Source: Bacillus sp. V5-8f (lineage in GTDB: Bacteria; Bacillota; Bacilli; Bacillales; DSM-1321). Taken from it: a stretch of 64,000 bases of DNA. The stretch spans positions 186,001 through 250,000 of the forward strand of contig NZ_PGUW01000002.1 of NCBI RefSeq assembly GCF_002863565.1, written 5' to 3'. Positions 13,552-50,058 of the stretch are shown here, piece by piece (positions within the stretch are counted from its first letter, which is position 1; each line of letters starts with the position of its first letter). The translations under genes and the position numbers were made by a program. The notes below the pieces were generated by a model. The model was not told the origin of the DNA. It did not search any database and saw nothing but the letters and a program-made list of their open reading frames with translations.

Positions 13552-13647
13552 GCCAGATATTATTTTAGAAAAGATAGGACTAGTATTATAAACGTAATCA
13601 TTTGTTATTTTCTAATGGCAGTGTTTTTATATATAGAAGAAACCGGC

Positions 13648-13687
13648 AAAATCAAACCCCCTTTCGCGAGGAAAGGGGGTTTGATTT
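13648..13687. terminator. Bidirectional terminator
   Basis: AAATCAAACCCCCTTTC and GAAAGGGGGTTTGATTT form a perfect 17-bp stem around a seven-base loop, with A/T runs at both ends. It serves the hypothetical gene and the convergent formate/nitrite transporter. Confidence 0.93.
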
Positions 13688-13689
13688 AT

Positions 13690-14463
13690 TTATTTATTCG
13701 GACGAAGGTATGCGAACCAGTAAATGAAAGCTACAAAAAGAGCTCCGCCTATAGCATTCCCAATGAAAACGGGAACAAAATTTCCTAGATAATCCATCCA
13801 AGTAAGGTGTCCTGCAAAAATGGCAGCAGGAATAATGAACATGTTTGCGACAACGTGCTGGAATCCAATAGCAACAAACCCCATGATAGGGAACCAAATA
13901 GCGAGGATCTTCCCGCCAGTATCCTCAGAGCCGTAAGATAACCAGACAGCCAATGCAACTAGCCAGTTACAGCCTATTGCGGATACTAGACTCTGTATAA
14001 AAGTAGGGTCAACCTTCGCTTGTGCTGTCGCCACTGTTTTATGAAGGAAAGGCTCCATTTCTGTTAACCCCACAATATGGCCAAAGAAATAAGCAATAAA
14101 TATAGCACCTAAAAAGTTTGCAATCGTAATCCAGAACCAATTTATGATTACCTTGGACATCGCGACTTTTTTATTTAATGCCGCGATTGGCAGCGCCATC
14201 ATGTTACCAGTAAGAAGTTCACCACCGCCAACAACTAGCAAAATCAAGCCTAAAGGGAAAACTGCTGCTCCTAAAAATTGGGTAAATGTTCCCCATTCTG
14301 CCGGCATGCCAGCGGTTACACGAATATACAAAAGATAACCTAATGAAATGTAAGTTCCACCTAAAAAGCCAAGTATCAGCATGTTAGGGAGGGATAGTGA
14401 CGCTTTTTTGACACCAGCTTCGACTGCAGTTTCTGCGATCTGTTGTGGACTGCGAAATGCCAT
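13690..14463 (-). CDS. yrhG: Formate/nitrite transporter (FNT) family channel
   Basis: A 257-residue FNT channel with six membrane segments, related to FocA/NirC and to YrhG next to the formate dehydrogenase genes of B. subtilis. Visible family blocks are G-G-T-Y-I-S-L-G near residue 35, L-L-T-G-N-M-M near residue 83, and the half-repeat C-N-W-L-V-A-L-A-V-W near residue 165 with G-F-Q-H-V-V-A-N-M-F near residue 200. Pentameric channels of this family pass formate or nitrite. The ATG has AGGAGG eight bases upstream. Its position behind the dehydrogenase and DUF1641 genes points to formate uptake or release. A terminator between it and DUF1641 suggests partial or separate transcription. Confidence 0.9.
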   Translation of the reverse strand: MAFRSPQQIAETAVEAGVKKASLSLPNMLILGFLGGTYISLGYLLYIRVTAGMPAEWGTFTQFLGAAVFPLGLILLVVGGGELLTGNMMALPIAALNKKVAMSKVIINWFWITIANFLGAIFIAYFFGHIVGLTEMEPFLHKTVATAQAKVDPTFIQSLVSAIGCNWLVALAVWLSYGSEDTGGKILAIWFPIMGFVAIGFQHVVANMFIIPAAIFAGHLTWMDYLGNFVPVFIGNAIGGALFVAFIYWFAYLRPNK

Positions 14464-19954: not shown

Positions 19955-21643
19955 ATGAACAAAAACCATTTTGCCTACTGGCCAAAACGAGTCACAAAAA
20001 CACTTACAGTTCCAGAAACCACCTTATTTGACAACCTTGAGGTTTCAGCAAGACGGTATCCCAAAAAAGCAGCTCTATATTACTATGGTGCTGAGTATTC
20101 GTATCAAGAGCTCCTACATGAAGTGGAAGCAATTGCAGGCTACCTACAACAGAAACTGAATGTAAAAAAGGGAGACCGGGTAGCTTTATTCATGCAAAAT
20201 TCACCGCAGTTCCTGATCACGTATTATGCCATTGTACGCACAAGGGCTATTGTCGTACCCATTAATCCAATGAATACCGAAAATGAGCTTTCTTTCTACA
20301 TAAAAGATTGCGAAATTCAAACTGCCATTGTTGGGCAGGAGCTTTTCGGGCACGCCCAGCCGCTCCAAAACACTACTTCCTTAAAAAATATCCTGGTTGC
20401 TGCCTATTCCGATTATTTGCCGCAGCAAGATTCACCTCAATCCATTCCTTCAGAAGTTGCCGCACCAAGAAATACATATTCAGGGGAAAACCAATATTTA
20501 TGGAAAGAAGCAATCGAAGAGAAATTAGCGCCATCCCAATATACAGGCCATGCAGATGATGTGGTCGTTTTACCTTATACCTCCGGGACCACCGGACTTC
20601 CGAAAGGCTGTATCCATACAAACCGTACTGTACAGGCGAATGTCCTAAGCGCCTACTATTGGAGTGGCACTACAAGTGATTCTGTATCATTGACCACCTT
20701 GCCTCTATTTCATGTGACAGGAATGGTCCACAGCATGCATGCGCCGATTTATGCCGGTGCAGCGATGGTGATGCTTACCAGATGGGACCGGAATACCGCC
20801 GTGGAAGCTATACAAAAGTATAAATGTTCCCATTGGGTCAATATTAGTACGATGTTGATTGACTTTTTGGCGAATCCGAATCTTATAGATTATGATATTT
20901 CATCTTTATCGAGTATCTCAGGCGGCGGAGCACCTTTGCCGGAAGCAGTCGGGGAGAAGCTTTTTAAACTGACAGGTTTGAAATTCGTGGAGGGCTACGG
21001 ACTATCTGAAACCATTTCCCAGACACATTTTAATCCGCCTGACCGTCCAAAAATGCAGTGTCTGGGCATTCCGGCATTTGACGTTGATGCGAAAATCATT
21101 GATCCGGCTTCCTTAGAAGAATTACCGCCTGGATCAATCGGAGAGATTATTGTCCATGGCCCGCAGGTTTTTAAAGGCTATTATAACCGTCCTGAAGAAA
21201 CGGAACAGGCTTTTATTGAAAAAGGCGGAAAACGCTTCTTCCGGACTGGCGATATCGGGAAAATGGATGAAGAAGGCTATTATTTTATGGTTGACCGTGT
21301 TAAACGGATGATCAACGCCTCAGGTTATAAGGTGTGGCCAACTGAAGTGGAGTCTCTGTTATACAAGCATCCTGCCGTAGAGCAGGCATGTGTCGTTGGA
21401 GTTCCTGATGCGAAAAGAGGGGAAACGGTCAAGGCTTTCATTATCCTGAACCAAGAGTTTAAAGGAAAAGTCTCTGAAGACGAAATTATAAGCTGGGCGA
21501 AAACACAAATGGCAGCTTACAAGTATCCTAGATTCGTGGAGTTCAGGGATTCATTCCCAACTACGGCGAGCGGGAAGATCCTTTGGCGTAAGCTGCAAGA
21601 AGAAGAAAAGGAAAAAGCGGGGACGGTGGCAGGAAATGAGTAA
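19955..21643 (+). CDS. Acyl-CoA ligase (AMP-forming), long/medium-chain fatty acid type
   Basis: A 562-residue ANL-superfamily enzyme: carboxylate + ATP + CoA to acyl-CoA + AMP. The AMP-binding P-loop Y-T-S-G-T-T-G-L-P-K-G lies near residue 208. The G-Y-G-L-S-E-T motif lies near residue 346, the hinge F-R-T-G-D-I-G near residue 429 and the C-terminal catalytic lysine block T-A-S-G-K-I-L-W-R near residue 542. ATG 19955 follows CAGGAGGG. The next gene starts eight bases inside this one, so the two are coupled. The promoter carries a TetR-type operator and a CcpA box, fitting a fatty-acid or related acid catabolic gene. The exact acid is unknown. Confidence 0.9.
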   Translation: MNKNHFAYWPKRVTKTLTVPETTLFDNLEVSARRYPKKAALYYYGAEYSYQELLHEVEAIAGYLQQKLNVKKGDRVALFMQNSPQFLITYYAIVRTRAIVVPINPMNTENELSFYIKDCEIQTAIVGQELFGHAQPLQNTTSLKNILVAAYSDYLPQQDSPQSIPSEVAAPRNTYSGENQYLWKEAIEEKLAPSQYTGHADDVVVLPYTSGTTGLPKGCIHTNRTVQANVLSAYYWSGTTSDSVSLTTLPLFHVTGMVHSMHAPIYAGAAMVMLTRWDRNTAVEAIQKYKCSHWVNISTMLIDFLANPNLIDYDISSLSSISGGGAPLPEAVGEKLFKLTGLKFVEGYGLSETISQTHFNPPDRPKMQCLGIPAFDVDAKIIDPASLEELPPGSIGEIIVHGPQVFKGYYNRPEETEQAFIEKGGKRFFRTGDIGKMDEEGYYFMVDRVKRMINASGYKVWPTEVESLLYKHPAVEQACVVGVPDAKRGETVKAFIILNQEFKGKVSEDEIISWAKTQMAAYKYPRFVEFRDSFPTTASGKILWRKLQEEEKEKAGTVAGNE

Positions 21644-22637
21644 GATGGTTGAAACGGTAACAGGTCCAATCCCAATCGAATCCTTGGGAAAAACATTAAT
21701 TCATGAGCATTTTATCTTTGGCTATCCCGGCTTCCAGGGGGATGTAACATTAGGTCCTTTTATTGAGGAAGAAGCTTTGGAGGCTTCCATTAACATAGCC
21801 CGGCAAATGATGAGTTACGGCATCAGAACCGTAGTAGATCCAACTCCAAATGAGTGTGGAAGGAATCCGGCATTTTTAAAGAAGATTTCCGAGGCCACCG
21901 GACTACAGATTATTTGTGCGACCGGTTATTACTATGAAGGTGAGGGAGCACCTCCTTATTTTAAATTCAGGCAGGCGCTAGGGTCAGCCGAGGAAGAAAT
22001 CTATCAAATGTTTAAAAAGGAAATTACAGACGGAATTGGTGGTACAGGGATCAAACCTGGAATCATTAAGCTTGCATCCAGCAAGGATACCATTACTGAG
22101 TATGAAAAAATGTTTTTCCGCGCTGCAGCAAGTATCCAGCAAGAAACGGGCACCGTTATCTTGACACACACACAGGAAGGGACAATGGGACCCGAACAGG
22201 TTGGGTTCCTAACAGAACAAGGAGCAGATCCTTCCCGGATCATTATCGGGCATATGTGTGGAAATACCAATCCGGAATATCACAGAAACGTGTTGGACCA
22301 AGGAGTAAGGATCGGATTTGACAGGTTTGGTATTCAGGGTTCGGTAGGGGCACCGTATGACCATGAGCGTATTGAAACACTTTTAACATTATTGGAAGCA
22401 GGATACGAAGATCAAATCCTGCTTGCTCATGACTCTGTAAACATCTGGCTTGGAAGGCCGCCGGTCATGCCTGAGCCTGTAATGAAATTGATGGAAAACT
22501 GGCATCCAGGGCATTTATTCGAAAGTATCATTCCTGAGCTACGGCAGCGAGGGGTGACAGAACAGCAGATTGATAAACTAATAGGGAAAAATGCAGCTGA
22601 TCTATTCGCAGGTGAAGCTGTTAAGATACGTTCATAG
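21636..22637 (+). CDS. Phosphotriesterase-family metal hydrolase (PTE/lactonase-like)
   Basis: A 333-residue amidohydrolase-fold protein. Metal ligands of the family are visible: H-E-H at residues 23-25, the carboxylated lysine in G-I-I-K-L-A near residue 145, H in I-L-T-H-T-Q-E-G near residue 178, H in I-I-G-H-M-C-G-N near residue 205, and the aspartate in L-L-A-H-D-S near residue 267. Relatives include phosphotriesterase-like lactonases and PhP proteins. The ATG overlaps the ligase end, so a joint pathway is likely, for example hydrolysis of a lactone or ester before CoA activation. That link is inference. A bidirectional terminator follows. Confidence 0.87.
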   Translation: MSKMVETVTGPIPIESLGKTLIHEHFIFGYPGFQGDVTLGPFIEEEALEASINIARQMMSYGIRTVVDPTPNECGRNPAFLKKISEATGLQIICATGYYYEGEGAPPYFKFRQALGSAEEEIYQMFKKEITDGIGGTGIKPGIIKLASSKDTITEYEKMFFRAAASIQQETGTVILTHTQEGTMGPEQVGFLTEQGADPSRIIIGHMCGNTNPEYHRNVLDQGVRIGFDRFGIQGSVGAPYDHERIETLLTLLEAGYEDQILLAHDSVNIWLGRPPVMPEPVMKLMENWHPGHLFESIIPELRQRGVTEQQIDKLIGKNAADLFAGEAVKIRS

Positions 22638-32236: not shown

Positions 32237-33220
32237 ATGCGTCCAATTGCACTTGGTGTTTTCGCTGCCTTCTTTTTCGCTTTTACCTTCATATTAAACC
32301 GCATGATGGACCTTTCTGGAGGGAGCTGGCTTTGGAGTGCGTCTTTGCGTTATTTTTTCATGGTGCCAATGCTCCTAATCATTGTCATGTCACGAAAGAA
32401 CTTGATTCCCTTATTAAAGGAAATGCAGTCACGCCCATCTTATTGGCTCGTGTGGAGTTTTGTCGGGTTCGGGTTATTTTACGCTCCCATTTGTTTTTCG
32501 GCAGCATATGGTCCTGGTTGGTTAATTGCGGGAACATGGCTGATCACGATCATCTCTGGTTCATTGCTTGTACCGTTTTTTTATGAGACGAAGCAGACTG
32601 CCCACGGCATGGTCCAAATTAAAGGAAAAATTCCATACCGCGGATTAATGATGTCCATGGTGATTCTTCTTGGAGTCGCACTTATGCAGTATGAGCATGC
32701 AAACGAAATTTCACTATTAGAAACACTTTTATGCGTAATCCCCCTCATTGTGGCCTCGTTTGCTTATCCGCTCGGGAATCGAAAAATGATGGAGGTCTGT
32801 TCAGGAAGGCTAGATGCCTGGCAGCGAGTTTTGGGAATGACGATCGCAAGTCTGCCATTTTGGCTTATCCTTTCTGTTTTCGCTTTTACCACATCAGGTC
32901 CTCCAGCCCCAGGACAAATTTGGCAGTCGGCAGCTGTCGCCCTGTTTTCAGGTGTATTTGCCACCGTGCTATTTTTCGCGGCAACCGATTTGGTAAAAGG
33001 AAATATGCAAAAATTAGGTGCGGTTGAAGCTACACAATCTTTAGAGGTTTTATTTGCTGCCGCAGGGGAGATTATCATACTCTCGGGTGATTGGCCATCC
33101 GCTGTTTCATGGACTGGAATGATGCTCGTCATACTTGGCATGGTGCTCCATAGCTATGTTTCATCAAAACCTGAAAAAACAATGATCCAAACTGTTAAAG
33201 AAGAGAAATTTACAGGATAA
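32237..33220 (+). CDS. Multidrug resistance efflux transporter, EmrE/DMT-like (PF13536 type)
   Basis: A 327-residue membrane protein with about ten hydrophobic segments, a two-repeat DMT-superfamily carrier. The start F-A-A-F-F-F-A-F-T-F-I-L-N-R-M-M and the W-L-I-T-I-I-S-G-S-L-L-V-P-F-F block near residue 100 resemble the multidrug resistance efflux transporter family annotated in Bacillus. ATG 32237 follows AAGAGGTGG. Its end overlaps by 11 bp the 3' end of the convergent LuxR-type regulator. Substrate unknown. Confidence 0.82.
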   Translation: MRPIALGVFAAFFFAFTFILNRMMDLSGGSWLWSASLRYFFMVPMLLIIVMSRKNLIPLLKEMQSRPSYWLVWSFVGFGLFYAPICFSAAYGPGWLIAGTWLITIISGSLLVPFFYETKQTAHGMVQIKGKIPYRGLMMSMVILLGVALMQYEHANEISLLETLLCVIPLIVASFAYPLGNRKMMEVCSGRLDAWQRVLGMTIASLPFWLILSVFAFTTSGPPAPGQIWQSAAVALFSGVFATVLFFAATDLVKGNMQKLGAVEATQSLEVLFAAAGEIIILSGDWPSAVSWTGMMLVILGMVLHSYVSSKPEKTMIQTVKEEKFTG

Positions 33221-33896
33221 TTCCTTTCCTCATACCTACCGCGATGGCCTCAGCTCGGTGATTAACGCCGAGCTTTCTCATGCTTGCACTGATATAATCC
33301 CTTACTGTAAATTCACTTACATTCATCATGGATGCCATTTCCTTCATAGAGTATCCATTTGCCAGGTGTTGCAGGACCTCTGTTTCCCTTTTGCTCAAGG
33401 AAGGCTTTTCTTCTGAATTGTGTGACAGGGGGGACAGTGCCTTTTTAATATAATGGGATAAAAGCGTTAAATAGTTTTTTTCAAAGGGATATTCACCCAT
33501 GTATCTGTCAACCAAAACAAATCCGACCACTATATTCAATAGGCTGATGGGGATAATCGCAAGAGATGAAAGTTGAAAATGGCGGACATATTTATCAGGA
33601 AACGATTCAAGTATATCTTCACGGTGGATTAATACTGGTTTATTTCTGGTGACGGCCTGATAAAGCGGAAAAATGGTACGGATGTCGTCTTTCACATGCT
33701 GAAGCGAAATGACTTTACTGTTCTCAATCAGAAAAATACCTTCACCAAAATGGCTTAATGGCGAATATGTGAACAGAGAAGCACGCTCGAATGGAAAAAA
33801 GTCAACACAACCTCGCAGCATTTGTTCAGCCTTTTTTCGAATATCATTTACTTCAGCCACTGTCTTTATATACTCATTTACAGCGTTCTCCATCAT
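33210..33896 (-). CDS. LuxR-family transcriptional regulator with N-terminal GAF-like domain
   Basis: A 228-residue regulator. An N-terminal sensory part of about 155 residues (F-E-R-A-S-L-F-T-Y-S-P-L, I-P-I-S-L-L-N-I-V-V-G-F-V-L-V-D) has a GAF-like pattern. The C-terminal GerE/LuxR helix-turn-helix spans about residues 165-225 (L-S-K-R-E-T-E-V-L-Q-H-L-A-N-G-Y-S, V-S-E-F-T-V-R-D-Y). The start is an ATG pair at 33896 behind GGGGGGG. It is transcribed away from the R2lox operon, with 148 bp between the starts, so it is the obvious candidate regulator of that operon. No autoinducer synthase is encoded nearby, and the ligand is unknown. Confidence 0.85.
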   Translation of the reverse strand: MMENAVNEYIKTVAEVNDIRKKAEQMLRGCVDFFPFERASLFTYSPLSHFGEGIFLIENSKVISLQHVKDDIRTIFPLYQAVTRNKPVLIHREDILESFPDKYVRHFQLSSLAIIPISLLNIVVGFVLVDRYMGEYPFEKNYLTLLSHYIKKALSPLSHNSEEKPSLSKRETEVLQHLANGYSMKEMASMMNVSEFTVRDYISASMRKLGVNHRAEAIAVGMRKGIIL

Positions 33897-34044
33897 TCGA
33901 CATTTTCCCCCCCTATATTTTCAGGAATGTTTTTTATGCTAAATCCATCGTACTATAGATTGAAAGCCCTTACAATTTTTAAAGCATTTACCTTGCTTGG
34001 TCTGACTGGTTTTTTGGGCTTGATATGTTCGAAGGAGGTTATTT

Positions 34045-34932
34045 ATGGAGAAGAGAACGATTTTAACGACGAGTAAAAGAGGGCTCTTGCTGGATTCGCT
34101 CCCGTTTCGCCTATATCAAAAGGCTAAGCGGTTCGGTATCTGGAATCCTGCTGATTTTGACTTTACCCAGGATGTGAAGGACTGGAATAACTTTACAAAT
34201 GAACAAAGAGAAGCAATCTTGAGGCTGATTTCACAATTCCAGGCGGGCGAGGAAGCAGTAACAAGGGATTTACTTCCGTTAATGATGGTCATTGCAAAAG
34301 AAGGCCGTCTGGAAGAGGAAATGTTCCTGACAACCTTTTTATTCGAGGAAGCAAAGCATACGGAATTTTTCAGGCTCCTGCTGAATGCTCTCGGGGTAAC
34401 AGGAGATCTGTCCATCTATCATTCAAATACTTATAACACTATATTTAATGAAATACTTCCAACTTCATTGGAACGGCTTGAGCATGACCATTCCCCTGAA
34501 GCCTTGGCTGAAGCATCGACCGTCTATAATATGTTCGTGGAGGGAGTCCTTGCGGAGACCGGATATTACTCGTTTTATAAATCATTAGAAGGTATTGATG
34601 CCATGCCATCATTATTGAAGGGAATCGGATACCTGAAAAAGGATGAAGGGCGCCACATTGCCTACGGTACATTTTTACTGCAGCGCTTGATCAGCGAACA
34701 TCCTCATATCTTTGACATTGTATCAAAGAAAATGGAGGAACTGACTCCTCTAGCCATACAGCTTAACCAGGAGGGCAGGGTGGAGGAATCTCCATTTGGC
34801 GTTGACTTTGAAGATACGATGAATTTTACGATGAAACAGCTAACCGTAAGGATGGACATCCTCGCAAAATCAAGGGGCCAGAAATTGGATGATATCTACA
34901 AGCAGCAGGAAAGTGAATTCGGGGTTGTCTAA
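34045..34932 (+). CDS. R2-like ligand-binding oxidase (R2lox)
   Basis: A 295-residue ferritin-like protein of the R2lox group, closest in residue numbering to the Geobacillus kaustophilus protein. The Mn/Fe ligands are all present: E69, E102 and H105 (E-E-A-K-H), E166 (F-V-E-G), E201 and H204 (D-E-G-R-H). The pair that forms the Val-Tyr ether cross-link is also present (V72 in E-E-A-V-T-R and Y161 in T-V-Y-N-M). These exclude a classical ribonucleotide reductase R2, which needs the radical tyrosine and an R1 partner gene. R2lox binds a fatty-acid-like ligand and performs two-electron oxidation; its natural reaction is unknown. ATG 34045 follows GAAGGAGG. An aldehyde and an alcohol dehydrogenase follow on the same strand. 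Confidence 0.92.
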   Translation: MEKRTILTTSKRGLLLDSLPFRLYQKAKRFGIWNPADFDFTQDVKDWNNFTNEQREAILRLISQFQAGEEAVTRDLLPLMMVIAKEGRLEEEMFLTTFLFEEAKHTEFFRLLLNALGVTGDLSIYHSNTYNTIFNEILPTSLERLEHDHSPEALAEASTVYNMFVEGVLAETGYYSFYKSLEGIDAMPSLLKGIGYLKKDEGRHIAYGTFLLQRLISEHPHIFDIVSKKMEELTPLAIQLNQEGRVEESPFGVDFEDTMNFTMKQLTVRMDILAKSRGQKLDDIYKQQESEFGVV

Positions 34933-35010
34933 TTCAAAAAACAAAACGATATACAGCAAAAAGGAAAGTTAGCCTTTTCTGTTTGGCCGAATCTAAAAGG
35001 AGGATGAAAA

Positions 35011-36543
35011 ATGACTGTTCAAGTAGATATTCAAACGTTCCCGTTATTTATTAATGGGAATTGGGAGCCGGCATCAGGAGGGGAAACCTTCGATGTTATA
35101 AATCCGGCAAATGGTGATTTGGCTGCCAGAGTCGCGAAAGCGACGGCTTCAGACGTGGATAAAGCTGTACAGGCTTCACGGGATGCATTTGACAAAACTG
35201 ATTGGAAGGAAATGCTGCCAAAAGACCGGGCCAAAGTATTAAATGCAATTGCGCATGGGATTGCGACAAATGCTCAGGAGCTTGCTTTTCTTGAAACGAT
35301 TTCCAGCGGAGGAACAATCCGCAGGGTTGCCTCCAATGATATTCTACAAATGGTTGACCTATTTAACACAATGGCTAAATTTGTACAAACGTACCCATTT
35401 TCGGAGACTCTTCCGTCACCGCCATTTCCAGGACCAGCCCATAATTTTATCTGGAGAGAACCGATAGGTGTTTGCGCGGCCATTACACCATGGAATATGC
35501 CAATGTTGATTGCGACATGGAAAATAGCTCCGGCTCTTGCAATGGGGAACACGGTAGTCATTAAGCCGGCAAGCTACACTCCGCTATCTACACTGAAACT
35601 CGCAGAAATCATTTCACAATTTGTTCCTCCAGGCGTCATCAATGTGGTCACCGGTCCAGGTGCCGAGGTTGGGGAAGCTTTGGTGCGTCACCCAAAAGTC
35701 GATAAAGTTGCTTTTACCGGCTCCACCGAAGTTGGACGGAAAATTATGGCCCTTGCTTCTACTACAATTAAGCACACCACTCTTGAGCTCGGCGGAAAAT
35801 CGCCGAACATAGTTCTTGAGGATGCAGACATGGATATTGCAATCCCGGGCAGTCTTTTTGGAGTGTTCTTACACTCGGGCCAGCTTTGTGAATCAGGTAC
35901 CCGGTTATTTGTTCCGGACAAGCTACACGATGAAATTGTTGAACGTCTCGTTGCGCTTGCAAAGAGCTTGAAACCGGGCAACCCGCTTGATCCGAATACC
36001 ACTATCGGCCCAGTGATTTCAAAGCGGCAAAAGGAAACGATCCTTTCCTATATCGAATCCGGGAAGCAGGAAGGGGCAACTTTGGTATGTGGCGGGAATG
36101 CAGTAACGGTTCCAGGCTGTGAGGGAGGCCACTTTATTGAACCGACAATTTTCACGAATGTCACAAATGATATGAAGATAGCGCAAGAGGAAATCTTCGG
36201 TCCTGTCTTATCGGTTATTCGTTATTCTGATGTTGACGAAGCCATTGCTATGGCGAATGACACGATCTACGGACTTGCTGCAGGAGTATGGACTCGGGAT
36301 GTGAATAAAGCGTACGTTATTGCCAGAAAGCTGCAGGCGGGAGTGATTTGGATCAATGACTGGCATATGCTCCGCAATGACGCTCCGTTTGGAGGCTACA
36401 AGCAGAGCGGAATTGGCCGGGAAATGGGAAAACATTCCCTCGATGCGTATACACAGCTAAAACATGTTCATACATCCATGGTTCCAGAGCTTCATAAACG
36501 GAACTGGTATCAAATTTTATTCCAAAATTCCAATGAATCTTAA
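35011..36543 (+). CDS. Aldehyde dehydrogenase (NAD(P)-dependent)
   Basis: A 510-residue ALDH-superfamily enzyme oxidising an aldehyde to the acid. Blocks: T-P-W-N-M-P near residue 160, F-T-G-S-T-E-V-G near residue 237, the general base E in L-E-L-G-G-K-S-P near residue 260, and the catalytic cysteine in G-Q-L-C-E-S-G-T-R near residue 293 (the usual x-C-x-A is C-E-S here). The C-terminal block [13 protein letters not shown] lies near residue 465. ATG 35011 follows AAAGGAGGATG. It lies 78 bp after R2lox and 21 bp before the alcohol dehydrogenase start, so the three likely act on one chemical route. Confidence 0.92.
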
Positions 36544-36564
36544 AAAAAGGCAGGGGTGATTTCG

Positions 36565-37776
36565 ATGCTTACAACGACAATGTCCAGTTATTGGCTGCGC
36601 ACAGCCATTCACAGCGGTTCAAATACAAGGGCGCTCGTACCCGATTTATTCAGGGGACTAGGTGCAAAAAGGGTGGTTCTTTTTAGTGACAGAGGATTGG
36701 AGAAGGCAGGAATCGTGGAAAAAGTAGCACAAATTTTCAGCCTTACCCCGCATGGGACCGGTCCAGAGCTAGCAGGCATTTTTCTTGATATCACACAGGA
36801 CGCCGAAAGCAGCTGTGTGAATGCTGCCGCACGCTACGCAAGAGAAGTGGGAGCAGATGCATTGCTTGCCGTCGGGGGAGGCAGCGTGCTCGATACAGTT
36901 AAAGGGGTAAAATACTCCTTGTTTAAAGGGTTAACTGACATTAATGAAGCGATACCAGGTGGTTTTGTAATGGAATCGTTCCCGCAAGCCGAGCATATCC
37001 CGATTCCCCATATTTCAATCCCTACAACAGCTGGTACAGGATCGGAAGTTTCGCCGATTGCGGTTATTTACAATGAAGAAATAAAGCTGAAAACAAATAT
37101 AATCAATCCATTTATTAGTGCAGATATGGCGATTTTAGATCCGGACTTGACCACTGGACTGCCGCCGCTCATTACTGCCTTTACCGGAATGGATGCATTG
37201 ACCCATGCAATTGAGGCACTGGCCTCGCCGAATGCCACTTCTTTGACAGATTCCTTTGCTCTCCATTCTATCCGTCTCATTGAGAAAAACCTTCCGCTGG
37301 CTGTCAGCAACGGATCAAATGTCGAGGCACGGATGGAAATGCTGCATGCCAGCCTGATGGGAATCACTGCATTTAGCTTCGCATTGAATGCTATTCCAGT
37401 GCACAATCTGGCTCATGCTTACGGTGCTATGTTCCGAATTCCACACGGCCTTGCAAACGCTGTATTTTTGCCTGTCGTTATGGAATATATTCCTGACCTT
37501 TACCTTCCTAAAGCAAAACAATTGGCAGAAGCATTAGATATCAAAGTCGACACTGATGACCAGAAGGCCTTACTTGCCAAGGCGGTAGAAAAGATCCGGT
37601 CGCTACAGGTTAAAATCGGGCTGCCTGCTGACTTTACACAATACAATATTTGCGAGGAAGACCTTCAAAGAGCAACAGGGGCTGTCGCATCTGACCCGGC
37701 AGCCATCAACTTCCCAATGCCCGCCCAATTAATTGAGGCAATTGGTCAAAGGGTAGTTCCTGTGCCTGTTAAATAG
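36565..37776 (+). CDS. Iron-containing (group III) alcohol dehydrogenase
   Basis: A 403-residue Fe-ADH family enzyme. The nucleotide-binding G-G-G-S-V-L-D block lies near residue 108, I-P-T-T-A-G-T-G-S-E-V-S near residue 152, F-T-G-M-D-A-L-T-H-A-I-E-A near residue 207, and P-V-H-N-L-A-H-A-Y-G near residue 276 with I-P-H-G-L-A-N-A near residue 290; these carry the metal-binding aspartate and histidines. ATG 36565 has AGGGGTG six bases upstream; an in-frame GTG at 36556 lies within that site. It is the last gene of the R2lox-ALDH-ADH operon before a terminator. Direction (alcohol oxidation or aldehyde reduction) is not visible. Confidence 0.92.
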   Translation: MLTTTMSSYWLRTAIHSGSNTRALVPDLFRGLGAKRVVLFSDRGLEKAGIVEKVAQIFSLTPHGTGPELAGIFLDITQDAESSCVNAAARYAREVGADALLAVGGGSVLDTVKGVKYSLFKGLTDINEAIPGGFVMESFPQAEHIPIPHISIPTTAGTGSEVSPIAVIYNEEIKLKTNIINPFISADMAILDPDLTTGLPPLITAFTGMDALTHAIEALASPNATSLTDSFALHSIRLIEKNLPLAVSNGSNVEARMEMLHASLMGITAFSFALNAIPVHNLAHAYGAMFRIPHGLANAVFLPVVMEYIPDLYLPKAKQLAEALDIKVDTDDQKALLAKAVEKIRSLQVKIGLPADFTQYNICEEDLQRATGAVASDPAAINFPMPAQLIEAIGQRVVPVPVK

Positions 37777-37780
37777 CCAT

Positions 37781-37811
37781 AAAGACGGCTCCACCCTGGA
37801 GCTGTCTTTTT
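37781..37811 (+). terminator. Terminator of the R2lox-ALDH-ADH operon
   Basis: AAAGACGGCTCCA and TGGAGCTGTCTTT pair, with one G-U, around CCC and run into TTTTT. Confidence 0.88.
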
Positions 37812-37839
37812 ATGTAATAAGTCATTTCAATCAGACAAT

Positions 37840-38463
37840 TTAGTGAATCTCATGGTTATTACTGATTGGATAAAGCGTCCCATTTAAGGCAAAGGAAATT
37901 TTTCCTGTTTCTTCCGATACCACCAAAACAAGAGCATCGGTTAGATCTGATAAACCCAGTGAAGCCCGATGTCTTGTGCCCAGTTTTTTTCCAGTGATTA
38001 CTTGGGAAGTGAGTGGTAGTACATTTGCTGCTGAAATGATTGTATTTTCCTTTACCAAAACGGCACCATCGTGAAGGGGATTTCCTGGATAAAAGATGGC
38101 CTCTAGCAAAGAAGGAGTCAATAAGGCTCCTATGGGAACACCTTTTTGGATAAAGGTATCTACTGGAACTGTCCGTTCTATTACAATGATCGCTCCATGT
38201 TTTTTCTTGCTGAGATTCTGCACGCTTTTCGCAATTTCCTCATATTTATTCGTAAATTCTGATAGATAGCAGGTCAAATAGAAGGAAGAGGCAATGGCTT
38301 CCATTTTCACGCATTCTTTTCTTATTTCTTCCAATTTACATAATAAGCAGTTCTCCTCATCATTAACCGCTTCAATGTTTGTGGTCAAATCATCCCGAAT
38401 CGAACGCATTGTTTCTTTCAATTTGATTTTGAGCGGGGAATAATCACAATCGATTTCTTTCAT
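37840..38463 (-). CDS. cdaS: Sporulation-type diadenylate cyclase CdaS
   Basis: A 207-residue c-di-AMP synthase. The DAC domain starts after a helical N-terminal regulatory part (about residues 1-75, YojJ-like). The catalytic D-G-A motif lies in P-L-H-D-G-A-V-L-V near residue 133, and the R-H-R motif in G-T-R-H-R-A-S-L-G near residue 164. Length and the helical N-terminus match CdaS, which in B. subtilis is made in the forespore, and not the membrane-bound CdaA or DNA-scanning DisA. The ATG has AAAGGACG upstream. It is monocistronic on the minus strand, downstream of two tiny genes that end in their own terminator. Confidence 0.92.
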   Translation of the reverse strand: MKEIDCDYSPLKIKLKETMRSIRDDLTTNIEAVNDEENCLLCKLEEIRKECVKMEAIASSFYLTCYLSEFTNKYEEIAKSVQNLSKKKHGAIIVIERTVPVDTFIQKGVPIGALLTPSLLEAIFYPGNPLHDGAVLVKENTIISAANVLPLTSQVITGKKLGTRHRASLGLSDLTDALVLVVSEETGKISFALNGTLYPISNNHEIH

Positions 38464-45381: not shown

Positions 45382-46590
45382 ATGGATTTTCATTTATCTG
45401 AAGAACAAGAAATGGTGCGCAAGGTTGTCAGGAGCTTCGTCGATAAGGAAATTATGCCATACATAGCCGAATGGGACAGAAAGGGCCACTTTGAATCTAA
45501 CATTATGAAACGGCTGGCTGAACTGGACTTAATGGGTGTTTGTATTCCTGAAGAGTATGGCGGAAGCGGGATGGACTATAATACACTGGCTATCGTTTGT
45601 GAAGAGCTGGAGCGCGGGGACACAGCATTCCGGACAGCGGTTTCCGTACATACCGGCTTGAATAGCATGACTTTACTACAATGGGGGAACGAAGAACAGA
45701 AGCAAAAGTATTTAGTTCCACAGGCAAAAGGTGTAAAAATCGGAGCCTTCGGGCTGACTGAGCCTAATGCCGGGTCGGATGTGGCTGCCTTAAAAACGAC
45801 TGCCGTACGGGATGGGGACGATTACATCATTAACGGTCAAAAAACATGGATTTCTCTTTGCGATGCTGCCGACCATTTCATCGTTTTTGCTTACACTGAT
45901 ACAAGCTTAAAGCATAAAGGCATTTCTGCATTTATCGTTGAACGTACGATGCCAGGCTTCTCCTCAAAAGCAATCAAAGGAAAGCTTGGTATCCGTGCAG
46001 GAAATACAGGCGAATTATTTTTTGACAATGTAAGAGTTCCAAAAGAAAATCTTTTGGGTGAAGAGGGAGAAGGCTTCAAAATCGCAATGTCCGCGCTGGA
46101 TAATGGCCGGTTCACTGTTGCAGCAGGTGCTTGCGGCCAAATCATGGCTTGCTTGGAAGCAAGCGTAAAGTATTGCCATGAGCGCAGCACCTTCGGAAAA
46201 GAAATCGGTAAACATCAGCTAGTTCAGCAAATGATTGCCAAAATGGAGGCAGGTCTACAAATTTCCAGGCTCCTTGTTTTTAAAGCTGGCTGCCTGAAAA
46301 ATGAGGGTAAACGTAATTCACGGGAAACATCACTTGCAAAATGGCAAGCCTGTGATTATGCCAATGAAGCAGCAAACGATGCTGTTCAAATCCATGGTGC
46401 ATATGGCTACTCTGATGAGTACCCGGTAGAAAGATACCTTCGTAACTCAAAAGCGCCTGTAATTTATGAGGGCACAAGGGAAATCCACACAGTCATGCAA
46501 GCTGAATATGTGCTTGGCTACCGGGAAGATAAGCCATTGAATAAAAACCTACCGGCCTGGAATGAAAAGGTATCGACTGCGAATAGATAA
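45382..46590 (+). CDS. Acyl-CoA dehydrogenase (FAD)
   Basis: A 402-residue flavoprotein that introduces a trans-2 double bond into an acyl-CoA. The N-terminal helical domain, the beta-domain signature F-G-L-T-E-P-N-A-G-S-D near residue 128, the W-I-S-L motif near residue 156, and the C-terminal Q-I-H-G-A-Y-G-Y near residue 338 are present. The catalytic glutamate is retained in V-I-Y-E-G-T near residue 361. ATG 45382 follows AAGGAGGAAAAAC. It is co-transcribed with the CoA transferase, which suggests one acid activated by CoA transfer and then dehydrogenated. Glutarate- and short-chain-type dehydrogenases share this pairing, but the substrate is not decided here. Confidence 0.92.
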   Translation: MDFHLSEEQEMVRKVVRSFVDKEIMPYIAEWDRKGHFESNIMKRLAELDLMGVCIPEEYGGSGMDYNTLAIVCEELERGDTAFRTAVSVHTGLNSMTLLQWGNEEQKQKYLVPQAKGVKIGAFGLTEPNAGSDVAALKTTAVRDGDDYIINGQKTWISLCDAADHFIVFAYTDTSLKHKGISAFIVERTMPGFSSKAIKGKLGIRAGNTGELFFDNVRVPKENLLGEEGEGFKIAMSALDNGRFTVAAGACGQIMACLEASVKYCHERSTFGKEIGKHQLVQQMIAKMEAGLQISRLLVFKAGCLKNEGKRNSRETSLAKWQACDYANEAANDAVQIHGAYGYSDEYPVERYLRNSKAPVIYEGTREIHTVMQAEYVLGYREDKPLNKNLPAWNEKVSTANR

Positions 46591-46605
46591 TTGATTATTT
46601 AGAAA

Positions 46606-46646
46606 ACTCCATATACTATTAAAGAAAAGAATCTAGTATATGGGGG
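46606..46646 (+). promoter_or_regulatory. Stem-loop covering the DUF3870 ribosome binding site
   Basis: CTCCATATACTA and TAGTATATGGGG form a 12- to 13-bp stem with a 15-base loop. The right arm contains the G-run that serves as ribosome site for GTG 46654. The fold may hide the site, act as a weak terminator (TTTTC follows), or both. Confidence 0.5.
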
Positions 46647-46653
46647 ATTTTCT

Positions 46654-46977
46654 GTGCCAAATAACACTTTATTCATCGCTGGACATGCCAGGCTCCCACA
46701 GGGAATGGCAGCAAAAAGTGTCTTTGAATCGTTGACAATCACTGTTGAGGTGGATTGCAAATATGGAGTGATACTTGAAGCTTCCTGCACTCTTGCAACC
46801 GAGCATGGGCGGAATTTTGTCCGCAGCCTTCTTAGGGGACACAGCTTGCGTGATGGAATCGAGGCTCCAATGCAGCTCGTTCAGACCCATTATCGGGGCA
46901 AGGCAACAAATGCATTAATTGCAGCACTTAAAGATTTATACGCCCAGTTCGAATTGACAAAAGGATTGGTGAAGTAG
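46654..46977 (+). CDS. DUF3870 domain protein
   Basis: A 107-residue protein of the DUF3870 family, found near acyl-CoA and CoA-transferase genes in Firmicutes. The N-terminus T-L-F-I-A-G-H-A-R-L-P and the central C-K-Y-G-V-I-L-E-A-S-C-T-L-A near residue 45 are visible. The start is GTG 46654, with GGGGGA eight bases upstream, embedded in a hairpin. It lies 63 bp after the acyl-CoA dehydrogenase on the same strand. Function unknown. Confidence 0.82.
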   Translation: MPNNTLFIAGHARLPQGMAAKSVFESLTITVEVDCKYGVILEASCTLATEHGRNFVRSLLRGHSLRDGIEAPMQLVQTHYRGKATNALIAALKDLYAQFELTKGLVK

Positions 46978-47102
46978 CCAGCTCAGCGGTTGTACTTCAA
47001 GACAATAGTCCACTGTACACCGCTGGATTGGTCAATAAAAAATATATATAAAGTAAAAAAAACTTGTTTTTTCCGAACATTCTAAATAAACTAGTATTGT
47101 AC

Positions 47103-47120
47103 ATACTAACTGGTTGGTAT
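47103..47120 (+). promoter_or_regulatory. TetR-type operator, site 2 of 3, over the promoter of the second acyl-CoA operon
   Basis: ATACTAACTGGTTGGTAT overlaps a TATAAT -10 element (47118-47123) and so would block RNA polymerase when bound. See sites at 19818 and 61402 for the shared consensus. Confidence 0.65.
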
Positions 47121-47179
47121 AATGACAGAAACAAGAAATACCTACATTTTTTAACAAATTAAGGGATGGAGTTGAGTGT

Positions 47180-48355
47180 ATGTATTTACGCCTTACAGAT
47201 GAACAAAAAATGGTTCAAAAAACGATCAGAAGATTCGTAGAAAAAGAGTTAATGCCACTTGAAAACGATGTTTTGAGAAATGAGAGAGAAGGAAAACCAA
47301 GCCTTCCGCCAGGAAAATTAAAGGAACTCCAATTAAAAGCCAAGGAAGCTGGCTTCTGGGGCATCAATACACCTGAGGAATACGGCGGGGCAAACCTTGG
47401 ACAGATGATGCTGGCACTTGTATACATGGAGGTTTCAAAAACATTCGTTCCTTTCCAATTTGGGGGATCTGCTGATAACATCCTCTATTATGCAAATGAA
47501 GACCAAAAGAAAAAATATCTGATCCCTACTATTAACGGGGAAAAGAAATCCTGCTTTGCGATGACAGAACCAGGGGCAGGCTCCGATACAAGAAATATCA
47601 AAATGACGGCAGTAAAAGATGGCAATGAGTGGGTATTGAATGGGGAAAAGACGTTTATTACCGGCGGAAACGAAGCTGATTTCGTTATGGTTATCGCTAT
47701 TACCGACAAAGAACAGCATCAGGCTACAGGCCGTGACGGGGTAACATGCTTTATTGTCGACAGGGATATGGGCTGGAGATCAGAATATATTGACACGATG
47801 GGTGAATGGGGACCTGCAGGGCTGGTATTCGAAAACGTCCGCGTGCCGGAAGAAAACATTTTGGGTGAGGTAAATAAGGGCTATCAGCTCGGGCTCGAGT
47901 GGATCGGCTTTGCCAGATGGATTGTGGGTGCGCGTGCTATCGGTTCGGCTGAGCGCCTTCTGCAAATGGCCATTGATTATGCGAAAGAACGCGTGACTTT
48001 CGGCAAGCCAATCGCAGAAAGACAAGCCATCCAGTGGCAAATCGCTGATTCCGCTGTTGAAATCGAAGCGGCGCGCTGGTTAGTTCTCAATGCTGCATTT
48101 GCCCTAGACAATGGCGAAGATAACCGTCATTTAGCATCGATTGCAAAGCTGTATGGAGCTAACATGGGTAATAATGTAGTAGACCGAGTAATGCAAATCC
48201 ATGGTGGAATGGGCTATACAAGAGAGCTGCCGATCGAACGCTGGTACCGGGAAGCAAGACTTTGGAGAATTTATGACGGTACAGATGAAATCCAAAGAAT
48301 GATCATCGCAAGAAACCTGATCAAAGGACATGTTAAAGTAGGCCAAATTGGTTGA
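47180..48355 (+). CDS. Acyl-CoA dehydrogenase family protein with Asp at the catalytic-base position
   Basis: A 391-residue flavoprotein. Visible are F-A-M-T-E-P-G-A-G-S-D near residue 129, the W-V-L-N-G-E-K-T-F-I-T block near residue 151, and the C-terminal Q-I-H-G-G-M-G-Y near residue 336. The motif that normally reads Y-E-G-T is R-I-Y-D-G-T-D-E-I-Q here, placing aspartate where medium-chain enzymes use glutamate. This occurs in the ACAD10/11-like branch, so activity or substrate may differ. ATG 47180 follows AGGGATGGAG. It heads an operon with an SDR and two MaoC-fold genes, under the TetR-type operator. Confidence 0.9.
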   Translation: MYLRLTDEQKMVQKTIRRFVEKELMPLENDVLRNEREGKPSLPPGKLKELQLKAKEAGFWGINTPEEYGGANLGQMMLALVYMEVSKTFVPFQFGGSADNILYYANEDQKKKYLIPTINGEKKSCFAMTEPGAGSDTRNIKMTAVKDGNEWVLNGEKTFITGGNEADFVMVIAITDKEQHQATGRDGVTCFIVDRDMGWRSEYIDTMGEWGPAGLVFENVRVPEENILGEVNKGYQLGLEWIGFARWIVGARAIGSAERLLQMAIDYAKERVTFGKPIAERQAIQWQIADSAVEIEAARWLVLNAAFALDNGEDNRHLASIAKLYGANMGNNVVDRVMQIHGGMGYTRELPIERWYREARLWRIYDGTDEIQRMIIARNLIKGHVKVGQIG

Positions 48356-48422
48356 TAACCTATTTGACAGTTAAAAGATCACTACCTAGTAAACTATAAA
48401 AAATTGTTGGGAGGAAATCACA

Positions 48423-49187
48423 ATGGCTGGACGTTTTGATGGCAGAGTTGCTTTTGTAACAGGAGGAAGCCGGGGAATCGGGAAAGGAATCGTGGAATAC
48501 TTCGCACAAGAGGGAGCGAAGGTGGCTTTCATCGATATGAATGAAGAAGCACTAGCTCAAACAACAAGCGAGCTAAAAGAAAAAGGATATGAAGTATATT
48601 CAAAGGTAGCTAGTGTAACGGAAGCCGATCAGGTTGAAGCAGCGATCAAGGAAGCATATGAAACATTCGGTTCAGTGGATATCCTAGTAAACAATGCCGG
48701 TGTTATCCGTGACAATCTATTGTTCAAAATGACGGATTCAGACTGGCAGATGGTTATGGATGTTCATTTAAAAGGTTCATTTAATGCAGCACGCGCTGCC
48801 CAAAAATACATGGTAGAGAAAAAGTACGGCCGGATTATCAACATTTCTTCTACATCAGCACTAGGCAATAGAGGCCAGGCAAACTATGCAACCGCCAAAG
48901 CAGGCCTTCAAGGGTTTACCAAGACTCTGGCTATTGAGCTTGGAAGATATGGAATTACTGCAAATGCAGTTGCTCCCGGCTTTATTGAAACAGACATGAC
49001 GAAAGAAACAGCTGCAAGAATCGGAATTTCTTTCGATGATTTAATTAATGCAAGCGTAAGCAATATTCCAGTTGGCCGCAGCGGGAAGCCTGCCGATATC
49101 GCGAATGCCGTAGCCTTTTTCGCTGATGAAAAGTCCTCTTTCGTTAACGGCCAGGTCATCTATGTAGCTGGCGGACCAAAAGCTTAA
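48423..49187 (+). CDS. Short-chain dehydrogenase/reductase (3-hydroxyacyl type)
   Basis: A 254-residue classical SDR. The cofactor motif T-G-G-S-R-G-I-G lies near residue 14, N-N-A-G near residue 90, and the catalytic S (I-N-I-S-S-T near 142) with Y-x-x-x-K (N-Y-A-T-A-K near 160). The aspartate at the end of beta-2 (A-F-I-D-M-N) points to NAD(H). It is FabG-like and here is likely a 3-hydroxyacyl-CoA dehydrogenase, because the neighbours are acyl-CoA dehydrogenase and hydratase genes. ATG 48423 follows GGGAGGAAATCAC. It lies 67 bp after the dehydrogenase and 23 bp before the hydratase pair. Confidence 0.9.
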   Translation: MAGRFDGRVAFVTGGSRGIGKGIVEYFAQEGAKVAFIDMNEEALAQTTSELKEKGYEVYSKVASVTEADQVEAAIKEAYETFGSVDILVNNAGVIRDNLLFKMTDSDWQMVMDVHLKGSFNAARAAQKYMVEKKYGRIINISSTSALGNRGQANYATAKAGLQGFTKTLAIELGRYGITANAVAPGFIETDMTKETAARIGISFDDLINASVSNIPVGRSGKPADIANAVAFFADEKSSFVNGQVIYVAGGPKA

Positions 49188-49210
49188 TAGATAAAGAGAG
49201 GTGGAATACT

Positions 49211-49660
49211 ATGTTTACTGATGCAATTGGAAAGAAGTCAAACAAAGTAAAAAATACCGTCGAAAGAGGCGCAGTGCGAAAGTTTGCAGAATCGATCGGC
49301 GACATGCATCCCATTTATCTTGATGAGGAGACAGGAGAAAAATCAAGATACAAACGGAATATCGCACCTCCCACTTTCCCGCGGGTTTTTGATTACGGGG
49401 TGATTGATGGCTTAAAATTGCCTAATAAGGGGCTAATACACGGAGAACAGAACTATCACTACGAAAGACCTCTATTTGTAGGTGAAGAGATCTATTGTTA
49501 TGCAACTGTCAAGGATTACTATGAAAAACAAGGAAGTAACGGCAGCATGGGATTTTTAGTGTTAGAAAATAACGGTGTAGACCTGGCTGGAAATACCATT
49601 TTCACTTCAACCTCTGCCGTAATCATAACTGAAGCTGTCAGGAAGGGGCTGAAGGTATGA
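49211..49660 (+). CDS. MaoC-like/FAS1-type dehydratase subunit (hotdog fold, N-terminal type)
   Basis: A 149-residue hotdog protein of the FAS1-like dehydratase (MaoC_dehydrat_N) type. The N-terminal blocks V-E-R-G-A-V-R-K-F-A-E-S-I-G-D and P-I-Y-L-D and A-P-P-T-F-P-R-V-F are typical. The canonical D-x-x-P-x-H catalytic pair is not seen in order here. Such proteins usually form a heterodimer with a catalytic MaoC partner. ATG 49211 follows AAGAGAGGTGG. It overlaps the next gene by four bases (ATGA), which indicates tight coupling with that partner. Confidence 0.87.
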   Translation: MFTDAIGKKSNKVKNTVERGAVRKFAESIGDMHPIYLDEETGEKSRYKRNIAPPTFPRVFDYGVIDGLKLPNKGLIHGEQNYHYERPLFVGEEIYCYATVKDYYEKQGSNGSMGFLVLENNGVDLAGNTIFTSTSAVIITEAVRKGLKV

Positions 49661-50058
49661 CAAAGCTAGCTGAATTGCAGGTTGGTGAATCTCTTAAAGA
49701 AGTTCAGCTTGAGCCTGTGTCAAGATTGGATTTAATCAAGTACGCAGGGGCTTCCGGAGATTATAATCCCATCCATACAATCGATGACGAAGCTGCAAAA
49801 GCCGGTTTGCCAGGGATCATCGCCCATGGAATGTGGACGATGGGAAATTTGGCAAAGCTATTTACAGCTCATTATGAAGAAGGCTTCATCCAGGATTACT
49901 CAATCCGATTTAAAGGGATGGTTTTTCTAAATGATGTGATCACCCTCAGGGCCTCACTAAGTGAAAAAACAGAAAACCAACTGAATTTCGACGTTGCGGC
50001 GGTCAATCAGGCAGGCAAGGAAGTCATTAAAGGCAAGGTAGTTTACCACCAGTATTAA
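49657..50058 (+). CDS. MaoC-family (R)-enoyl-CoA hydratase subunit
   Basis: A 133-residue hotdog protein with the hydratase 2 motif A-G-A-S-G-D-Y-N-P-I-H (Asp and His catalytic) near residue 30-42, then G-L-P-G-I-I-A-H-G-M-W-T-M-G near residue 50. It overlaps the preceding hotdog gene by four bases, so the two are probably the non-catalytic and catalytic halves of one enzyme. In context it hydrates the trans-2-enoyl-CoA made by the dehydrogenase of the operon. The operon ends here with a terminator. Confidence 0.9.
   Translation: MTKLAELQVGESLKEVQLEPVSRLDLIKYAGASGDYNPIHTIDDEAAKAGLPGIIAHGMWTMGNLAKLFTAHYEEGFIQDYSIRFKGMVFLNDVITLRASLSEKTENQLNFDVAAVNQAGKEVIKGKVVYHQY

Follow-up and report, generated by a model that had tools for sequence, protein, structure and literature searches.

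What does an R2-like ligand-binding oxidase (R2lox) do for the cell, and which enzymes work with it? The structures and metal chemistry of this family are well studied, and we found one direct report of a role, published in 2024 from crude lysates (PMC10867098, in the part available to us). The question is raised anew by the window analysed here, a 64,000 nt stretch of the Bacillus sp. V5-8f genome, in which an R2lox gene is followed by genes for an aldehyde dehydrogenase (ALDH) and an iron-type alcohol dehydrogenase (ADH).

The R2lox gene lies at 34045..34932 on the + strand. The preliminary description had recognized it from its metal ligands and a Val72/Tyr161 pair, and its identity as a Mn/Fe-type R2lox was confirmed: the protein scored 337.8 bits against profile NF006202 (cut-off 315), all six metal ligands (E69, E102, H105, E166, E201 and H204) were present in the alignment, V72 and Y161 occurred in 102/102 aligned rows, and the top 34 PDB matches of the structure model were R2lox proteins. 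Judged from the alignment, the active-site residues are intact. An AurF identity (PF11583) was rejected; the search of the strain's own genome was empty, and the window protein belongs to PF00268/NF006202. The window R2lox falls outside the orthologue group of GkR2loxI, with 230 bits to 4hr0 compared with 314 for the R2lox of locus L067, which by sequence is likely the true GkR2loxI orthologue of the genus.

The ALDH (35011..36543, Aldedh profile, 591.8 bits) and the ADH (36565..37776, Fe-ADH and ADH_Fe_C profiles) follow on the same strand, with gaps of 78 bp between R2lox and ALDH and 21 bp between ALDH and ADH. The ADH ORF opens at a GTG at 36556. Fold calculation placed one hairpin 3' of the ADH (37778..37814; -20.2 kcal/mol on the + strand, z -6.4), a terminator common to the unit and the convergent gene cdaS. 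This hairpin appears on the - strand in the terminator consensus scan, and the sole + strand site listed by that scan is within the ADH. The layout described previously was reproduced, and the three genes may be co-transcribed. Over the region, the sigma-70 and terminator consensus scans stayed at shuffle level (7 hits against 8.7 expected, and 5 against 5.1), so no promoter is claimed. Rfam gave nothing above gathering score in 31000-52000. An 84-aa ORF at 33822-34076, overlapping the starts of R2lox and the divergent regulator gene, was taken as spurious.

Both dehydrogenases keep the residues that we take to be functional. The presumed catalytic-motif residues of the ALDH, Cys293 and Glu259, were present in 54/54 and 53/54 aligned rows, respectively; in the ADH, D210, H280 and H294 (74/74 rows) and H214 (73/74) are presumably metal ligands. 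A specific enzyme name was withheld for both, because the listed NCBIfam matches were all under cut-off: among the best 25 of 43 for the ALDH, the top was betaine-aldehyde dehydrogenase (558.6 against 668.6), and among the 18 listed for the ADH, it was ErcA (228.9 against 550). Searches of PDB sequences gave no substrate clue: at E 1e-150 the ALDH had no match, and at 1e-50 the ADH matched a single 886-aa chain, described as 'aldehyde dehydrogenase family'.

From 336 confirmed relatives, the best 80 (at least 61% identity) were taken to look for the R2lox-ALDH-ADH order, so that the fractions given here apply within this clade. Eight loci were excluded because of short flanks, and in the remaining 72 named loci, with orthologue thresholds that we set at 48 to 62% identity, here and in the acyl-CoA neighbour counts below, an ADH adjoined R2lox in 61 and an ALDH orthologue in 51. 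Both did so in 51 loci, across nine named genera, and neither did in 11. The preliminary description had held that lack of conservation in related genera would count against its reading; the order is conserved. What did not hold is a constant ALDH within the genus of the window, in which 24/27 loci had the ADH and 6/27 the ALDH, the latter being absent from 21/27. Ten genus loci with R2lox paralogues (53-62% identity) were without all three partners, in neighbour lists that extend up to six genes upstream and up to eight genes downstream. Two architectures were mutually exclusive among the 72 loci: a divergent LuxR gene was present in 23 and a CoA ligase gene directly upstream in 34, never together.

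A CoA ligase would connect the unit to acyl-CoA metabolism. In the window, no CoA ligase adjoins R2lox; one is encoded on the + strand at 19955-21643, followed by a phosphotriesterase-family protein (PTE) at 21636-22637, both identified by Pfam and both with orthologues beside R2lox in other genera. An island of acyl-CoA genes identified by Pfam (45382..50058, + strand: ACAD1, DUF3870, ACAD2, a FabG-like SDR, a FAS1-type dehydratase and MaoC) lies 6-8 kb from the unit, with cdaS between. The preliminary description had suggested that the oxidation product feeds into these genes, and codirectional orthologues beside R2lox in relatives support this: in 26/68 loci (the same 80, minus 12), at least one of five island genes had the same direction as R2lox and lay no more than 8 kb from it. 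We also set apart 16 of the 80 loci as Peribacillus, five of them by kinship judgement and not by title. Among the 64 others, the only window genes to recur at least five times with 60% identity or higher were R2lox, ADH (49), ALDH (47), SDR (17), the two dehydratases (17 each), ACAD2 (14), ACAD1 (11), a thiolase (9), the CoA ligase (7/64) and PTE (6/64). The 13 upstream CoA ligases compared form one family, 64-84% identical. Island genes occur on both sides of R2lox, downstream or upstream depending on the locus, and a quick tree of modest support implies at least 12 linkage changes.

Linkage of R2lox to ALDH and ADH is not a new idea. The part of PMC10867098 available to us describes such clusters in Geobacillus kaustophilus and alkane oxidation by GkR2loxI (GK2771; PDB 4hr0), which is encoded with ALDH GK2772, ADH GK2774 and beta-oxidation genes; the lysate depletes C10-C22 alkanes. 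GkR2loxI resembles the window R2lox in fold, metal ligands, Val/Tyr pair and neighbouring ADH, ALDH and acyl-CoA genes, but the two are about 42% identical and of different clades. The GkR2loxI-type loci of the genus (L067 and L068) carry a Zn-type ADH, an SCP2-like gene and an ALDH, in contrast to the Fe-ADH and divergent GAF-LuxR gene of the window. The L067 SCP2-like protein had no Pfam match, and was named from 31% identity to a Rhodococcus SCP2 protein.

Other R2lox clades have their own dehydrogenases. The genome of the window contains a second R2lox cluster, with ALDH, ADH and aromatic-acid-type genes, which is orthologous to that of GkR2loxII (GKP26, plasmid pHTA426; R2lox 62.7% identical). 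GkR2loxII is likewise encoded with an Fe-ADH, ALDH and CoA ligase, but it and its orthologue L069 are only 30-31% identical to the window R2lox. Loci of this type had their own ADH/ALDH in 7/7 cases. The UbiD and molybdenum-hydroxylase genes of the GkR2loxII and L069 clusters, to which L069 adds a UbiX-like flavoprotein, point to aromatic substrates. On Rhodococcus and Mycobacterium plasmids, R2lox also has its own ADH/ALDH, with ferredoxin and FAD reductase genes in 3/4 distinct contexts (from four of eight actinobacterial records, the other four matching the query at equal identity). The Rhodococcus clusters (pROB01, pR8L1 and pRB11) share R2lox and an ADH with the window, and two of the three have ALDH and a fatty-acid CoA ligase; they differ in an NDMA-dependent Zn-type ADH and in the ferredoxin and reductase genes. 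The window unit has neither a reductase nor a ferredoxin gene. When other Bacillota loci were searched for the Rhodococcus pair, the one homologue to appear was of the reductase (30%), and lay 3' of the L129 unit. Linkage of R2lox to a ferredoxin gene was not found in the open-licence papers searched. AlkB and CYP153 alkane hydroxylase operons encode an oxygenase, ADH, ALDH and acyl-CoA synthetase. The window unit follows the same logic, but its oxygenase is of the ferritin-like R2 family, not a membrane di-iron enzyme or P450.

The divergent gene at 33210..33896 (- strand) encodes a LuxR-type regulator, as initially described, with a GerE HTH domain (58.2 bits, cut-off 23.5) and an N-terminus with a GAF fold. 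It was found in exactly the 27/36 genus genomes that carry the window-type R2lox. The best whole-length Foldseek matches were quorum-sensing receptors (TraR, CviR and QscR), with TM-scores mostly of 0.35-0.47, and no quorum-sensing role is claimed. Between the two genes, and kept across genus loci, lies the palindrome TGAAAGCCCTTACA (33961..33974), a candidate operator. With identical upstream stretches merged and near-identical ones kept separate, TGWAAGNNCTTWCA was found within one mismatch in 33/38 distinct loci with the divergent LuxR gene (0.13 expected from shuffles). The corresponding 4/60 for loci without it (0.14 expected) is weak evidence, as many of these loci sit inside longer operons. 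Four further exact sites occur in the genome (two inside genes, one past a gene end and one directly before a start codon); because none is at a divergent promoter, a LuxR regulon could not be drawn. The palindrome could instead be a CcpA (cre) site, placing the unit under carbon catabolite control and not mainly under that of LuxR. The window site matches 13/14 positions of a cre consensus, two LuxR-less Robertmurraya loci match 14/14 with the central CG, and the second R2lox cluster has TGTAAACGCTTTCA. Against this, the window site has a central CC, the CG being lost there and in most Peribacillus sites while the outer arms are kept, and the site tracks the LuxR gene, with the caution just given for LuxR-less loci. 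We consider cre control somewhat unlikely.

Beside the observed gene content, residues, fold, conservation and linkage of the unit, we infer its chemistry, order of steps, regulation and electron source. It is probable that the R2lox unit carries out the opening steps of a catabolic pathway. With O2 activated at its Mn/Fe (or Fe/Fe) site, R2lox would hydroxylate a hydrophobic substrate at a C-H bond. The resulting alcohol would be converted to an aldehyde by the Fe-ADH, and the aldehyde to an acid by the ALDH, with another ALDH standing in at loci that lack it. A CoA ligase would then form the acyl-CoA, which the nearby island would break down with its acyl-CoA dehydrogenases, dehydratase pair, FabG-like SDR and thiolases. 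The GAF-LuxR protein would control the unit via the palindrome, which lies in the promoter region common to both genes. A general ferredoxin and reductase would probably supply the electrons; in Rhodococcus, genes of this kind are part of the cluster.

Several observations weigh against this catabolic pathway: the window unit includes no electron-transfer genes, the ALDH is missing from most genus loci and both partners from some of the wider set, the paralogue loci are partnerless, and the island and CoA ligase of the window stand apart from R2lox. The ADH and ALDH could instead serve a desaturase or detoxification. Furthermore, the available part of PMC10867098 reports crude lysates only, and a two-ligand GkR2loxI mutant that lost only part of its activity. 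The same source lends support to n-alkanes as the substrate, through the C10-C22 activity and an analogous cluster with an equal order of steps. We regard a simple alkane-degradation operon as unlikely, given that the window R2lox belongs to another clade, sharing 43% identity with the GkR2loxI orthologue of its own genus, and that its ADH is non-homologous. In Bacillus sp. 7884-1 (L121), a branched-chain-type ABC importer directly precedes a ligase-R2lox-ALDH-ADH operon, an arrangement that would be more in keeping with a soluble substrate than with an alkane.

That R2lox produces or desaturates a lipid or signal of the cell, sensed by LuxR, with the dehydrogenases acting on the product and no catabolism, is consistent with the desaturase role proposed in the part of PMC4118035 available to us and with a GAF-LuxR regulator and conserved palindrome, but appears improbable given that the neighbours elsewhere (CoA ligase, acyl-CoA dehydrogenases, dehydratases and thiolase) are degradative by family. 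The three genes might also be neighbours through shared descent with no functional link: the loci have common ancestry and do not count as independent cases, both dehydrogenase families are large, and R2lox paralogues exist without partners. This is very improbable, since distinct R2lox clades adjoin distinct ADH/ALDH families in two phyla, and island genes lie on either side of R2lox, with the linkage changes implied by the quick tree of modest support.

Our analysis adds to the published clusters the ALDH/ADH linkage across nine named genera (among the best 80 of 336 relatives), the two exclusive architectures, acyl-CoA linkage elsewhere, LuxR co-occurrence with a palindrome, the second R2lox cluster and the ferredoxin/reductase linkage in Rhodococcus. 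More tentatively, and with less than an even chance of being right, R2lox could be a general ferredoxin-fed Mn/Fe monooxygenase module that takes the first step of several catabolic routes. Two such routes would be present here: that of the window, leading to acyl-CoA, and that of the GkR2loxII type, in which oxidation of an aryl substrate, perhaps at an aryl methyl group, would lead towards an aromatic acid for UbiD and 4-hydroxybenzoyl-CoA-reductase-like enzymes to process. The conserved context provides testable partners for R2lox: in Bacillaceae the ADH, ALDH and CoA ligase, and in Rhodococcus the ferredoxin and reductase. With these, its reaction could be reconstituted together with the likely sources of electrons. 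If the proposal is true, hydroxylation of C-H bonds by Mn/Fe cofactors would be in wide catabolic use, and would extend beyond a single round of self-modification.

Re-analysis of the window reproduced the four genes of the preliminary description, with their coordinates and gaps: the LuxR gene (33210-33896, minus strand) and, divergently, R2lox (34045-34932), ALDH (35011-36543) and Fe-ADH (36565-37776). The R2lox protein scored above the NCBIfam cut-off, the best 34 PDB matches of its structure model were all R2lox, and an alignment of 102 rows kept the six metal ligands and the Val72/Tyr161 pair throughout, E166 giving the one exception. In the LuxR protein, the sequence identifies a GerE domain, and the predicted fold a GAF domain. 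A single strong hairpin lies 3′ of the ADH gene, a terminator common to the convergent cdaS (37840-38463), which encodes a sporulation-specific diadenylate cyclase and was observed at this place in only some of the closest relatives. The host genome is 4.43 Mb, and the nearest named relative at the locus, among the best 80 of 336, is Peribacillus glennii (89% at R2lox).

The concept of an R2lox with an ALDH/ADH cluster is already in print, since a 2024 paper (PMC10867098) describes GkR2loxI of Geobacillus kaustophilus adjoining ALDH, ADH and beta-oxidation genes, and the plasmid-borne GkR2loxII likewise accompanied by ADH, ALDH and CoA ligase. The same paper reports that crude GkR2loxI lysate depleted alkanes, and that a two-ligand mutant lost activity only partially. 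By sequence comparison, the window R2lox is a member of neither group: it scores 230 bits against GkR2loxI, whereas the probable GkR2loxI orthologue of the genus reaches 314, and is only 30-31% identical to GkR2loxII and its orthologue at L069, the second R2lox locus of the same genome. Among clusters of this published type, the window unit is a new form.

The L069 cluster (G000:C11:5000-24900; R2lox at 9982-10812) is of aromatic type and orthologous to that of GkR2loxII. Its order is ALDH, Fe-ADH, R2lox, UbiD and UbiX-like flavoprotein, and upstream of these lie genes for molybdenum-hydroxylase-type subunits, a CoA ligase and an enoyl-CoA hydratase; ALDH-ADH-R2lox is kept in 7/7 such loci of the genus. 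At the GkR2loxI-type loci (L067, the one scanned for domains, and L068), R2lox is accompanied by a Zn-ADH, an SCP2-like gene and an ALDH on the opposite strand. Four distinct actinobacterial plasmid contexts were opened, two of them with domain scans: an NDMA-dependent ADH was present in all four, a fatty-acid CoA ligase in three, an ALDH within 6 kb in two, and a ferredoxin with FAD reductase in three. That different R2lox clades have recruited unrelated ADHs as neighbours would make little sense if R2lox neither produced an alcohol nor depended on its removal. The Fer4-type ferredoxin and FAD reductase of the Rhodococcus plasmids (L198 4798-12216, L199 3364-6939, L201 3369-12816) are plausible electron donors for R2lox, and would fill a gap left by the Bacillaceae unit. 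Among the Bacillota loci searched, no homologue of this Rhodococcus ferredoxin was found, and one of its reductase (30%) only at L129 of Geobacillus thermocatenulatus (13184-14380). There it is codirectional with R2lox and begins about 1.5 kb beyond the ADH, from which an ORF on the opposite strand separates it.

Window-clade R2lox occurred in 27 of 36 genus genomes searched (26 above the cut-off and one whose frame is broken), and exactly these held a LuxR orthologue (E < 1e-90), always divergent from R2lox; in G014 stops interrupt the LuxR frame. An ADH lay 3′ of R2lox in 24/27 loci and an ALDH was present in 6/27, one of each in two pieces. Of the broken R2lox frames (G012:C18:832777-833626, G008:C3:77383-78239), one species carries an in-frame stop, another a split frame; the latter accompanies split ADH and PepF frames and probably reflects assembly quality. 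Ten genus paralogue loci (53 to 62% identity) had no LuxR, ALDH or ADH orthologue among their nearest genes, so the partner link is a trait of some clades, not of every R2lox.

More widely, 72 of 80 named loci (the best 80 of 336) had enough flank: ALDH was near R2lox in 51, ADH in 61, both in 51 and neither in 11, while a divergent LuxR occurred in 23, a CoA ligase directly upstream in 34, the two together in none and neither in 15. By record names, this set places the R2lox-ALDH-ADH triad in Peribacillus, Mesobacillus, Neobacillus, Shouchella, Metabacillus, Pseudalkalibacillus, Alkalihalobacillus, Geobacillus and Alicyclobacillus. In a quick phylogeny of 88 R2lox proteins, at least seven changes were needed for the LuxR trait, eight for the ligase and ten for the ALDH.

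A 14-bp palindrome at 33961-33974 recurred (≤1 mismatch) in 33/38 distinct upstream regions where LuxR is divergent, for which shuffled sequence would give 0.13, and in 4/60 that lack it. It is a candidate LuxR operator or cre site; it resembles the latter except at the central CG, which is missing in the window and kept in Pseudalkalibacillus hwajinpoensis-type and Robertmurraya sites. Separately, TGTAAACGCTTTCA at position 12926 of L069 perfectly matches the cre consensus. Longer proteins (frame of about 490-530 aa) matched the GAF-LuxR profile at G027:C82:24437, G035:C18:56663, G009:C19:976712 and G011:C1:2293857, two of them within 7 kb of GkR2loxI orthologues.

The acyl-CoA island of the window (45382-50058) sits 6-8 kb from the R2lox unit. 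Three loci, L088 of Neobacillus terrae, L083 of Bacillus sp. T33-2 and L130 of an Alkalihalobacillus MAG, have the order CoA ligase, R2lox, ALDH, ADH, ACAD1, ACAD2, SDR, FAS1-type dehydratase, MaoC; L087 and L102 share it except that both lack ACAD1 and L102 also a recognised ligase, and other Mesobacillus and Neobacillus loci contain parts of it. In L088, the five island proteins share 72 to 92% identity with their window counterparts. Within the best 80 of 336, 26 of 68 loci had at least one of five island genes within 8 kb, every time codirectional with R2lox: downstream in 12, upstream in 8, and as ACAD1 alone in 6. Window genes recurring often near R2lox outside Peribacillus (≥60% identity, 64 loci from the same 80) were catabolic only; the commonest other was a uracil-DNA-glycosylase-family gene (42016), in four. 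A 59% homologue of the R2lox-linked CoA ligase lies elsewhere in the window's genome.

In Bacillus sp. 7884-1, the genes of an ABC importer of branched-chain type (L121 1706-6334), consisting of two permeases, two ATPases and a binding protein, lie directly upstream of ligase-R2lox-ALDH-ADH, hinting at a soluble substrate. In N. terrae, a metallo-beta-lactamase-fold hydrolase and a phosphotriesterase-family protein are encoded (L088 4375-6424) just upstream of the R2lox operon; the window has a phosphotriesterase-family gene at 21636-22637, with orthologues near R2lox in six loci among the best 80 of 336. Because both folds include lactonases, the pathway may include an ester or a lactone.

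The earlier proposal that an acid product feeds the island gains its best support from the orthologues linked to R2lox in other genera. On the observed basis of genes, residues, folds, conservation and linkage, we consider it fairly probable that the unit serves a route, its reaction, electron source and regulation being what we infer, in which R2lox would act as an oxygenase converting C-H to an alcohol, the alcohol would pass through aldehyde and acid to acyl-CoA, and the GAF-LuxR protein would control the unit.
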